NCBI GenBank assembly: GCA_943357025.1
Contig: CALRGA010000005.1
Coordinates: forward strand, 1 to 37,970
DNA from: Candidatus Uhrbacteria bacterium RIFOXYB12_FULL_58_10
GTDB lineage: Bacteria > Patescibacteriota > Patescibacteriia > UBA9934 > GWF2-40-263
Direction of reading: 5' to 3'
Length of the DNA: 37,970 bases
Shown here: piece by piece, positions 28,900 through 32,084 of the stretch
Layout: each line of letters begins with the position of its first letter
Position numbering within the stretch: the stretch's first letter is position 1
Translations under genes and position numbers: made by a program
Notes under the pieces: model-generated
The model's input: the letters and a program-made list of their open reading frames with translations, nothing else
Told to the model about the DNA's origin: nothing
Databases searched by the model: none

Positions 28900-29360
28900 A
28901 ACAAGAGCTTTCCATCCTGATCCTGTCCGCGCTCCCGGTCACGGAGCTGCGCCTTTCGGTTCCGATCGCGATCGGGCTCTTTGGATTCACGCCGTTCAAG
29001 GCGTGGGCAATCGCGTTTATCGGAAACCTCATTCCCGTCCCGTTTCTTTTGGTCGGAATGCCAAAAATTTTGGTGTGGTTGGAAAAACGGATTCCACGGT
29101 TTCATCGCTTCGTCGACAAAAAGCTCCGCGCGCTCGAAAAGGATCACATGAAATCCTACCAGCGGTTCGGTGCCCTCGCCCTCGCGATTCTCGTCGCGGC
29201 CCCGCTTCCGGGTTCCGGAATCTGGTCGGTGACCGCGCTCGCGGTCCTGTTCGACATCAAGCATCGGTATGCCGTCCCTGCGATCATCATCGGTCACGTA
29301 TTTGCCAGCATCGGAGTCGTCCTGCTGACGATCGGCGCGTTCAAGGTCACGTCGCTATGA
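28896..29360 (+). CDS. Small multidrug export / COG2426-family membrane protein
   Basis: [51 protein letters not shown]. Confidence 0.8.
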   Translation: MKQELSILILSALPVTELRLSVPIAIGLFGFTPFKAWAIAFIGNLIPVPFLLVGMPKILVWLEKRIPRFHRFVDKKLRALEKDHMKSYQRFGALALAILVAAPLPGSGIWSVTALAVLFDIKHRYAVPAIIIGHVFASIGVVLLTIGAFKVTSL

Positions 29361-30418
29361 GGATTGCGGTCGACGGCACCACGATGCGCGACGGCGCGGG
29401 AATTGGCACGTACGCGCGTTCCGTCGTCGAGGCCATGCGATCCGTTCCTGGAACGGATCTCTTCGTTTGGAATCCGAAGCGCCGCGTCCCGTTTTTGACG
29501 CGGCATGTCAGCCTGCCGGTCGTCGCGACCATGAAAATGACCGACGTCCTGTTCTGTCCCGCCAATCAGTCGCCAATCTGTTGGACGGGAAAGACTGTCG
29601 TCACGGTCCACGACCTGACGATCTACGAGCACCCGGAATGGTTCCCAAAGTCAAAGCTCGACTTCGCCGCCCGCGTTCTCGTCCCGCGATCGCTACGACG
29701 CGCAAATGCGATCGTCGCGGTATCCGAGGCGACGAAGAAACAGATCGGACGCGTGTTCCCGGACGTCGTCGACAAGGTTGTCGTTGTCTATCCCGGCGTC
29801 GTCAGCGTTTCCCCTCCTCATAGGGAGGAGGGGACAGGCGTGGTCGCCGCGACGTCCGACACGATCCTCTTCGTCGGCACCCTCGAGCCGCGCAAGAACC
29901 TCGTCAACGCGCTCGCCGCGTTCGACGCGTTCCTGCGCATGCACCGCGAGCGCGCCGCGACGACGCGCTTCGTCATCGCGGGAGGAATCGGATGGAACGC
30001 CGAGCCGATCCTTGAGGCGATCGCGCAGACGAATGCCGCCTGGCAATCCGTCGCGGGCGGCGACGTCGTCCGACAGGTCGGGTACGTCACCGAGGACGAG
30101 AAGGCGAATTTATACTCGCAGGCCGCATGTTTCTTTTTTCCATCGTGGGAGGAAGGGTTCGGCCTCCCGGTCCTCGAGGCCATGGCCGCCGGCGTCCCGG
30201 TCATCGCGTCGAACCGCGGCGCGCTTCCCGAGGTCGGCGGCGACGCGGTGATCTACGTCGAGCCCGACGACACCGAGCAGATGGCGTTCGCGATCGCCCA
30301 GTGCGTGATGATGCCCGAGGCGCTCGGAGAAATGGTCGCGGCCGCGAAGCTCCGCGCGGCGGAATTTTCGTGGGAGCGAACGGCGCGTTCGATCGTAGAA
30401 ATTTTTGAGAAAATTTGA
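29357..30418 (+). CDS. GT4-family glycosyltransferase
   Basis: MRIAVDGTTMRDGAGIGTYARSVVEAM; FFPSWEEGFGLPVLEAMAAGVPVIASNRGALPEVGGDA. Confidence 0.92.
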   Translation: MRIAVDGTTMRDGAGIGTYARSVVEAMRSVPGTDLFVWNPKRRVPFLTRHVSLPVVATMKMTDVLFCPANQSPICWTGKTVVTVHDLTIYEHPEWFPKSKLDFAARVLVPRSLRRANAIVAVSEATKKQIGRVFPDVVDKVVVVYPGVVSVSPPHREEGTGVVAATSDTILFVGTLEPRKNLVNALAAFDAFLRMHRERAATTRFVIAGGIGWNAEPILEAIAQTNAAWQSVAGGDVVRQVGYVTEDEKANLYSQAACFFFPSWEEGFGLPVLEAMAAGVPVIASNRGALPEVGGDAVIYVEPDDTEQMAFAIAQCVMMPEALGEMVAAAKLRAAEFSWERTARSIVEIFEKI

Positions 30419-30448
30419 TTTTACTTTTGTGGCTCGCCGCCACCGGGC

Positions 30449-30652
30449 GTTACTTTCTTTGAAGGCGGCAAAGAAAGTAACCAAAGAAAACCGCTACCGC
30501 CCGGCCATCCGCTCCTACGCCAGAACGCGAAAAATTGGCTCGGCTGCGGAACTCGCTTCTCGCCTGCGGGCTCGTACGCTCAGACAATCCTCGCCCGTGC
30601 TGACGCACCCGCCAATTTTTCGCGTCCTGGCTGGGTCGCTCCGGCAGGGCGG
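30449..30652 (+). repeat. Structured repeat element, copy A
   Basis: 13-bp hairpin GTTACTTTCTTTG/CAAAGAAAGTAAC, then a long stem 30520-30539/30611-30630; shares 18-nt and 27-nt blocks with copy B. Confidence 0.85.
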
Positions 30653-30688
30653 CGACCGGATGGAAGTCTTTTTGATAACCACCCCTAA

Positions 30689-30709
30689 CCCCTCCTTGAA
30701 AAGGAGGGG
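30689..30709. repeat. Small palindromic repeat
   Basis: CCCCTCCTT-GAA-AAGGAGGGG perfect 9-bp stem. Confidence 0.8.
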
Positions 30710-30768
30710 AGACGAGGGAGAAAAAAGCCTCAGCCACAAAACAATTGCGCAACACCGCCCGGACGACC

Positions 30769-30986
30769 CGCCCTGTCGGAATGGCGGATGGGAGATGGGA
30801 CGTAAAACTTGGCCGGGTGCATCAGCACGGGCGAGGATTGTCTGAGCGAAGCGGCGCTGTCAGGGGTTAACGTCCGGCGCAGCTAGCGAGTTCCGCAGCC
30901 GAGGCCAAGTTTTACGTCCCATCCCGCCATGGAGACCGGGCGGCGGATTTCTTTGCTTACTTTCTTTTTCCGCAAAAGAAAGTAAG
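30769..30986 (-). repeat. Structured repeat element, copy B (inverted relative to A)
   Basis: Hairpin CTTACTTTCTTTT/AAAAGAAAGTAAG (30956-30986) and perfect 21-bp stem 30794-30814/30903-30923. Confidence 0.85.
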
Positions 30987-31007
30987 GCCCCGTGGGTGGC
31001 AACCCAC

Positions 31008-31037
31008 AAAAAAACTCCTCACGGAGTTCTTTTTTTT
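31008..31037. terminator. Bidirectional intrinsic terminator of the downstream minus-strand gene
   Basis: A-run AACTCC-TCAC-GGAGTT T-run, adjacent to the stop at 31044. Confidence 0.85.
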
Positions 31038-31043
31038 TCGCGC

Positions 31044-31508
31044 TTACAATTTCGTCTGCAAATAAGCAATCAACACCACCTGCGCCAGCAAGGCGTAGTA
31101 CAGCGGAACTTCTCCGCGCCTCTTCACGAAGAAATCGTGGAAGTAGAAGTGCATCGTGTTGAACCATCGCAGGAGCGGGGTCTTGGTGACCTCGTAGAGT
31201 CCGACGATGAGGTCGGGTAGGACCCCTCCGACGATTCCCCAGGTGAACGTCCGCATGTGGTCGATATCGCGCGTATTGGCGAGCAGGAGGACGAACAGCA
31301 GCGCGATGGTGGCGTCCACGGCCACGTAGGCCACGGCCTGGGTCTGGCGCGTCTTGTGGACGCGAAAGTTGTCTGAGATCCCGGTATCGCCGTGCGGGAT
31401 CATGTCGATCATGAAGTGAGAAACGAAACCGAGAACAAAGGCAACCACCGGATTTCCAACCGCATGCCCGATAACCGCCCCGAGCGTCGCGTGCGTTGTC
31501 AAAGTCAT
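31044..31508 (-). CDS. Membrane-bound metal-dependent hydrolase-like protein
   Basis: MTLTTHATLGAVIGHAVGNPVVAFVLGFVSHFMIDMIPHGD; multiple TMs; start revised from 31574. Confidence 0.65.
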   Translation of the reverse strand: MTLTTHATLGAVIGHAVGNPVVAFVLGFVSHFMIDMIPHGDTGISDNFRVHKTRQTQAVAYVAVDATIALLFVLLLANTRDIDHMRTFTWGIVGGVLPDLIVGLYEVTKTPLLRWFNTMHFYFHDFFVKRRGEVPLYYALLAQVVLIAYLQTKL

Positions 31509-31518
31509 AGTTGGCCGG

Positions 31519-31547
31519 ATTATGCCATATCGTGAGGATTTATGCAA
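31519..31547 (-). promoter_or_regulatory. Promoter of the hydrolase-like gene
   Basis: Minus strand TTGCAT-N17-CATAAT with extended TGG; -10 is 10 nt from the ATG. Confidence 0.7.
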
Positions 31548-31567
31548 TAAAATGCAGTTGGATTCGC

Positions 31568-31596
31568 TTGGCAATTCTTGGGCATTCTGCTACCAT
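31568..31596 (+). promoter_or_regulatory. Promoter of tRNA-Leu
   Basis: TTGGCA-N17-TACCAT with extended TGC. Confidence 0.65.
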
Positions 31597-31615: not shown

Positions 31616-31701
31616 GGGCGAGTGGCGGAATGGTATACGCGCGGGACTCAAAATCCCGTGTCCGCAAGGGCATGAGGGTTCGAGTCCCTCCTCGCCCACC
31701 A
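31616..31701 (+). tRNA. tRNA-Leu (CAA)
   Basis: Acceptor GGGCGAG/CTCGCCC, loop CTCAAAA, long variable arm, encoded CCA. Confidence 0.95.
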
Positions 31702-31824
31702 AAAACCGTTTAATTTCGCGATCTGCTGGTTTGCCGCTCCGCTCCCTCCCTCACCGTATATTCGTATACGCCTCGGTCGGGTGCTCGCGGCGCACCAACA
31801 TCTCATCAAAATTAAACAGTTTTT
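31701..31824. repeat. Imperfect palindrome between tRNA genes
   Basis: AAAAACCGTTTAATTT ... AAATTAAACAGTTTTT (15/16 inverted match), inner CGTATA-TTCG-TATACG. Confidence 0.65.
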
Positions 31825-31880
31825 GTCCCACCGAACGCTTGTCAGAAAACGTCGTGTCTGGTATCATCCTGGCACATCGA

Positions 31881-31957
31881 GGCTGGGTAGCTCAGTCGGT
31901 TAGAGCGAGGGACTCATAAGCCCTAGGTCGGCGGTTCGATTCCGCCCCCAGCTACCA
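31881..31957 (+). tRNA. tRNA with CAT anticodon (elongator Met or Ile2)
   Basis: Cloverleaf GGCTGGG...CCCAGCT-ACCA, loop CTCATAA. Confidence 0.92.
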
Positions 31958-32007
31958 AAGCTGATTCAGACTGATCGCTCGCGGCGTGCGCCTTTACGGA
32001 CGCAGGC

Positions 32008-32084
32008 CGCGGGGTAGAGCAGCCAGGCAGCTCGCCAGGCTCATAACCTGGAGGTCGTCGGTTCAAATCCGACCCCCGCAACCA
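32008..32084 (+). tRNA. Initiator tRNA-fMet (CAT)
   Basis: CGCGGGG/CCCCGCA with C1:A72 mismatch, CTCATAA loop, encoded CCA; close to E. coli fMet. Confidence 0.95.

Follow-up and report, generated by a model that had tools for sequence, protein, structure and literature searches.

The window analysed here is the whole 37,970-nt stretch CALRGA010000005.1 (GCA_943357025.1) of Candidatus Uhrbacteria bacterium RIFOXYB12_FULL_58_10. The interval 30419-31043, between two convergent ORFs, holds a palindromic composite:

29003-30418, + strand: glycosyltransferase ORF, left neighbour of the element
30429-31007, half A (+ strand) then half B (- strand): entire composite element, delimited from sequence and from orthologous empty and filled sites
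31044-31574, - strand: 176-aa ORF, right neighbour of the element

tRNA genes for Leu, Met and Met lie at 31616-32084, 0.6 kb from the element; no link between them was seen.

A first-pass annotation of this DNA had described two inverted copies, A and B, of a structured element in a gene-free interval. All of the blocks it named are in place, with 82-92% complementarity, and both copies exist. They can be described more precisely as the two converging halves of a single palindromic insertion (~580 bp), and the composite of half A, a central stretch and the inverted half B recurs as a unit in many copies. The halves are joined by inverted pairs at 30577-30627/30798-30848 (51 nt, 86%), 30525-30557/30885-30917 (33 nt, 82%), 30470-30494/30943-30967 (25 nt, 92%) and 30440-30460/30975-30995 (21 nt, 90%). 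Because the A-B match reached E = 1e-16 in a search of the window's genome, it is not a product of chance. Each half also contains an internal stem of its own, and RNA folding of the halves gave energies far below those of shuffled sequences (z = -4.6 and -6.3).

From outside to inside, a half consists of a short hairpin (HP1), a second hairpin (HP2), an A-rich segment with a short block, a long stem, and a core at the stem tip. HP2 has the general form TTACTTTCTTTG..CAAAGAAAGTAA and is followed by the A-rich segment and the short block; the core, ~30-45 nt long, reads GGAACTCG - variable hairpin - CTCARACAGTCCTCGC. The corresponding parts in the window, with the basis for each in brackets, are:

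30429-30443, + strand: HP1 of half A, short terminal hairpin GTGGCTCGCCGCCAC adjoining a T-rich stretch (sequence; similar hairpins end other copies)
30449-30481, + strand: HP2 of half A, hairpin GTTACTTTCTTTG/CAAAGAAAGTAAC (sequence, inverted-repeat search)
30483-30494, + strand: putative pseudoknot/triplex module of half A, third segment AAAGAAAA plus CCGC (covariation across copies)
30519-30631, + strand: long stem of half A, with arms at 30519-30539 and 30611-30631, core inside (inverted-repeat search; arms pair best with their own partner)
30548-30594, + strand: conserved core of half A, GGAACTCG - variable hairpin - CTCAGACAATCCTCGC (matches across genomes)
30679-30709, - strand: central GC-rich three-segment motif CCCCTCC-TTTTCAA-GGAGGGG-TTA-GGGGTGG (by-eye comparison with the TMECO/BoxC type A motif, PMC4666352)
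30794-30923, - strand: long stem of half B, perfect over 21 bp, with arms at 30794-30814 and 30903-30923, core inside (inverted-repeat search)
30831-30894, - strand: conserved core of half B (sequence, inverted-repeat search)
30943-30986, - strand: HP2 and putative pseudoknot/triplex module of half B, hairpin 30956-30968/30974-30986 (sequence, inverted-repeat search, covariation across copies)
30992-31007, - strand: HP1 of half B, terminal hairpin GTGGGTGGCAACCCAC (sequence)

In half A, AAAGAAAA is a mirror repeat of the purine arm of HP2, and the CCGC within 30483-30494 is complementary to GCGG in the HP2 loop (30465-30468). Half B has the same arrangement, with a predicted pseudoknot between GCGGA (30943-30947) and TCCGC (30969-30973) and a third strand at 30948-30955. 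Across copies, the A-rich segment mirrored the HP2 purine arm perfectly in 26 of 36 scorable arm/third combinations; mean mirror identity was 0.91 as compared with 0.79 for shuffles, none of 2000 shuffles scored as high, and pairing of the following block with the HP2 loop was likewise elevated (4.63 vs. 3.17). The mirror and the loop complementarity covary across copies, which points to a pseudoknot in each half, with the mirror repeat as a third strand that could form a triple helix. On the complement strand this would be an H-type pseudoknot in which a long pyrimidine loop runs alongside, and parallel to, the second stem's purine strand, and the predicted triple helix would be of the U.A-U/C+.G-C type.

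Mirror repeats of this kind have been described for the PIT/BoxC/TMECO elements. In PMC4666352 (Hoyne and Maher cited there), these are intergenic, multi-copy elements with a hairpin followed by a mirror third strand, sometimes as two inverted copies of different subtype; TMECO itself, an Escherichia coli intrastrand triplex, is presented as a 34-37 nt motif with no such core. The mirror-repeat third strand next to the HP2 hairpin is a shared feature. The centre of the composite (30679-30709, - strand) has the three-segment order of TMECO/BoxC when compared by eye with the type A motif of that source, although its segments are 7 nt long as opposed to 9 nt in the published TMECO consensus. Unlike PIT/TMECO, the triplex module of the present element is AT-rich, is predicted to be pseudoknotted, and belongs to a larger element with a long stem and a core.

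Two measures mark the complement of the core-sense strand as the structured one. Isolated arm mismatches, read in the core sense, were A.C in 39 contexts and G.T in 13 in a first set, and A.C in 46 and G.T in 19 unique contexts in a larger one. A genome-strand cause was set aside, since the A.C excess was present in both halves of composites in the first set, and these lie on opposite strands. In addition, the complement strand had the lower folding energy in 201 of 225 copies (mean difference 7 kcal/mol); the shared core adds to this count, so that the copies are not independent. The suggestion in the first-pass annotation of an ncRNA family is supported if taken to mean a structured nucleic acid, given the covarying stems, the pseudoknot and the strand asymmetry. 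The introduction of PMC4666352 states that RNA cannot form purine-motif triplexes and can form the other kind; if RNA is the functional molecule, this restriction agrees with the complement strand.

Further copies were found in the window's genome on contigs C20, C4, C54 and C26, along with a lone end piece on C50. Two of the four other genomes of the genus are carriers, G003 with ~10 copies and G002 with one; similarity searches found no element in G001 and G004, and 38 genomes from other genera of the family gave no match. Orthologous sites occur in both states. At the locus of the element in the window, G000 and G003 have the insertion; G001 and G004 lack it, and their two convergent genes lie directly next to each other. 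The C20 locus is filled in G000 and clean in G002 (GGGGTAG|AAAAGAAAAAACC). At C4, G002 retains two terminal pieces only, as after an internal deletion. Comparison of G000 with G002 at C20, the one clean site, gave no evident target-site duplication; direct repeats of up to 11 nt occur at the ends of copies in Myxococcota (see below). The suggestion in the first-pass annotation of a non-autonomous mobile element is supported by the multiple copies, the empty orthologous sites and the lack of an associated transposase. In G003 (contig 39, L223 region), the locus orthologous to the C20 insertion retains a remnant of the left end and also has a TMECO-like motif and an ORF of unknown function.

A pattern scan of genome contigs identified the core in at least 120 genome stretches, its conservation among them being partly inherent in the search pattern. 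Among the matches listed were Pseudomonadota, Nitrospirota, Myxococcota, Coriobacteriia, Bacteroidota, Gastranaerophilales, Desulfobulbaceae and Patescibacteria, and isolates of Dechloromonas, Niveibacterium, Thauera, Litorivivens and Barnesiella; 15 of the matching genomes have 2-50 copies each. Bacteria of at least seven phyla have the structured core, and its distribution is sporadic, with matches in 4 of 382 genomes of the window's own phylum. The similar AAAGAAAGTAA-CAAAGAAA repeats that the first-pass annotation mentioned for proteobacteria are real: the hairpin part is present on Caballeronia and Paraburkholderia replicons, and the full half-element in Dechloromonas, Gallionella and others. 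With copies in the window genome, the genus and other phyla, the pair in the window is not a solitary local duplication. The triplex/pseudoknot, the spread of the core over phyla and the target-derived arms of other lineages, described below, go beyond that annotation.

Only 1 of 2.9 million viral contigs has the core; this contig (IMGVR_UViG_2829208299_000001, L329) also has an HP2-like third segment beside it. A phage collection yielded no match to element or core, and plasmids yielded hairpin-only or short partial matches with no full element. No Rfam family was found at or above the gathering cut-off when gathering and permissive thresholds were used, and the sub-threshold hits were limited to flavivirus SL6 and miRNA precursors, which were taken as chance matches. 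A literature search with sequence strings retrieved no description of the core.

Several variant arrangements were noted. A short Barnesiella contig (G433 contig 32, L278) has the core in tandem units of ~395 bp. Another core type, GGGGCTCG...TCGAACA..TCCTCGC, is present at atpD/atpC of G424, and a core resembling it adjoins the G358 copy in L172 (loci L172 and L202). Gallionellaceae and relatives (L058, L063, L067, L106, L149, L150) have a + half-element followed by a - half-element 0.9-1.7 kb away, enclosing single unrelated small genes that are possibly cargo. The notion that these wide pairs are autonomous elements was rejected, as none of the inner ORFs is recognisable as a transposase.

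The long-stem arms differ from the core in being variable and self-complementary. For 173 copies, pairing of an arm with its own partner was about twice that with the arms of other copies (mean score 33 vs. 17 when swapped). In the Patescibacteria genus g43, four genomes gave 17 pattern matches, and a variant and a decayed copy were located in addition by their flanks. The core occurs singly here, in most cases 16-56 nt downstream of the stop codon of a gene in the same orientation, and the arms are locus-specific. In 9 of 13 copies the 5′ arm extends at least 3 nt, and up to 15 nt, into the upstream coding sequence. The arms follow each species' own codons, as with GCTTATTTGA vs. GTTAATCTGA at gpmI/mutM, where the 3′ arm changes accordingly. 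Between atpD and atpC, three species have a filled site with arms that match their own gene end, and the empty site of G425 lacks any inverted copy. Coriobacteria present a comparable picture: 12 of 18 copies are centred in a perfect palindrome peculiar to their locus, with arms of 17-49 bp whose inner end is at -38 to -42 nt from the core.

One Coriobacteria palindrome, a single case, is inserted in frame in priA (G432). The native codons R-M-R-G 5′ of this site are common to eight genomes of the genus, and an inverted copy of them occurs only in G432, in G444, which has another insert, and in G447, which has remnant arms without a core. In G432 and G444 the inverted copy matches the genome's own arginine codon, CGA and AGA, respectively; in relatives that lack an insert, the native 5′ sequence persists and no inverted copy is present. 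From this comparison of native and inverted sequences it follows that the native 5′ flank was the source of the 3′ arm, which arose during insertion or through subsequent correction of the palindrome. In these two lineages the copied flank includes priA codons as well as stop codons. Copies in the window genus have arms in common, which are therefore family-specific, and the inverted-duplication signature is consequently not visible in the window. Different palindromes were also seen at one site between a response-regulator gene and polA in several genomes of the G432 genus (L301-L309), which suggests a hot spot with other core types.

On balance, we consider it somewhat probable that the element is a non-autonomous mobile palindrome which, in some lineages, is accompanied by inverted duplication of adjacent target through snap-back synthesis. 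The observations behind this reading are the multiple copies, the empty and filled sites, a conserved core with variable self-complementary arms, the locus-specific flank copies and the strand asymmetry. The shared unit would be the core (~30-45 nt) that tips a long stem; in the window lineage it would have been elaborated into a convergent pair of half-elements that also bear terminal hairpins and triplex/pseudoknot modules. Extension would start from a free 3′ end on a nicked or nascent strand of the target and would use as template the complement strand of the core, the better-folded strand, in the form of RNA or single-stranded DNA. The new strand would then snap back on the core hairpin and copy the DNA just left behind, so that the far side of the insertion would carry an inverted copy of the near-side target. 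Extension followed by snap-back copying is the most economical model for the arms; we infer the order of the steps, the nature of the template, the mobilising agent, and that the window lineage shares this mode. Against it stand the family-specific arms of the window genus, the MITE-like copies of Myxococcota with direct repeats at their ends, and the fact that ordinary quasipalindrome correction could re-match arms after insertion. Template switching alone, moreover, leaves the strong cross-phylum conservation of the core unexplained. That conservation suggests a recognising factor, although none was found, and the core may have a standing function as a binding motif. An element that spreads across phyla with no dedicated enzyme, host replication or repair copying the folded strand, snap-back duplicating the target and the host locus supplying the arms, is a tentative idea to which we give a minor share of our confidence.

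The snap-back reading competes with one in which the sequence is a cis-acting structured RNA of 3′-UTRs or intercistronic regions, its arms coevolving by compensatory selection and its core a protein-binding motif. The upstream gene is co-oriented in 19 of 21 stand-alone Patescibacteria copies, usually at the distance given above, orthologous positions are kept across species with arms that have changed and yet remain paired, and the apical motif is conserved. We nevertheless regard this as unlikely: the better-folded strand is the complement of the transcribed orientation, the arms match coding codons and are missing from empty sites, occurrence in the phylum is sporadic, and the priA insertion is in frame.

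An ordinary MITE mobilised by a DDE transposon with terminal inverted repeats would account for the Myxococcota copies, which have such repeats, and whose end direct repeats of up to 11 nt average 6.8 nt (4.2 in shuffles). The element resembles MITEs in being short, non-coding and multi-copy, but its conserved part is internal and its termini are not common to lineages, arms being locus-specific in Coriobacteria and Patescibacteria. An all-against-all comparison of proteins within 2.5 kb of copies revealed no recurring transposase family, a range that distant autonomous copies would escape; the neighbours that did recur were spurious ORFs over the element and apparent housekeeping genes. An origin as an ordinary MITE is improbable. 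The core may ride in different frames, and there may be more than one spreading route.

It is very doubtful that the element is REP/BIME-like and owes its mobility to a Y1 (RAYT/HUH) transposase that acts on its folded strand. As in REP/BIME, short palindromes are paired in inverse orientation between genes and are non-autonomous, and the bulged hairpin, the one clean site free of target-site duplication and the strand asymmetry would all fit. Unlike REP/RAYT, the element is longer, has a conserved tip on a variable stem and revealed no RAYT dependence: Y1_Tnp had no hit in 9 of 21 element-bearing genomes, among them G003, G358 (7 copies, 100% complete), G429 (13 copies, single-chromosome assembly), G428 and G439 (17 copies), and loci around the Y1_Tnp genes of the genus contained no core or HP2 motif. 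A retroelement, with the structured RNA copied by an encoded reverse transcriptase, would supply the complement strand as template and an arm templated on the 5′ flank through priming by the target 3′ end, but holds little promise in view of the lack of RVT_1 hits in G358, G427, G429, G432 and G439 (6-17 copies each). As G358, G429 and G439 have neither Y1_Tnp nor RVT_1, both enzymes were rejected as required partners.

Rickettsia palindromic elements, palindromes of ~150 bp described in Rickettsia that insert in frame in coding genes (reviewed in PMC10969869), offer a parallel for the single case in priA of G432. By description they differ from the present element, whose core spans phyla and which in some lineages has target-copied arms.

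The element explains a class of spurious ORFs over such repeats. A single structured core of ~30-45 nt is found in the chromosomes of many phyla and yet is nearly absent from viral contigs. We know of no described bacterial repeat that has an inverted copy of adjacent host DNA as its insertion signature. The comparison of native and inverted sequences at priA and at gene ends makes the idea testable with strain-level genomes, and an inverted copy of the neighbouring target would represent either a novel transposition mode or a strong example of palindrome growth templated by the palindrome itself.
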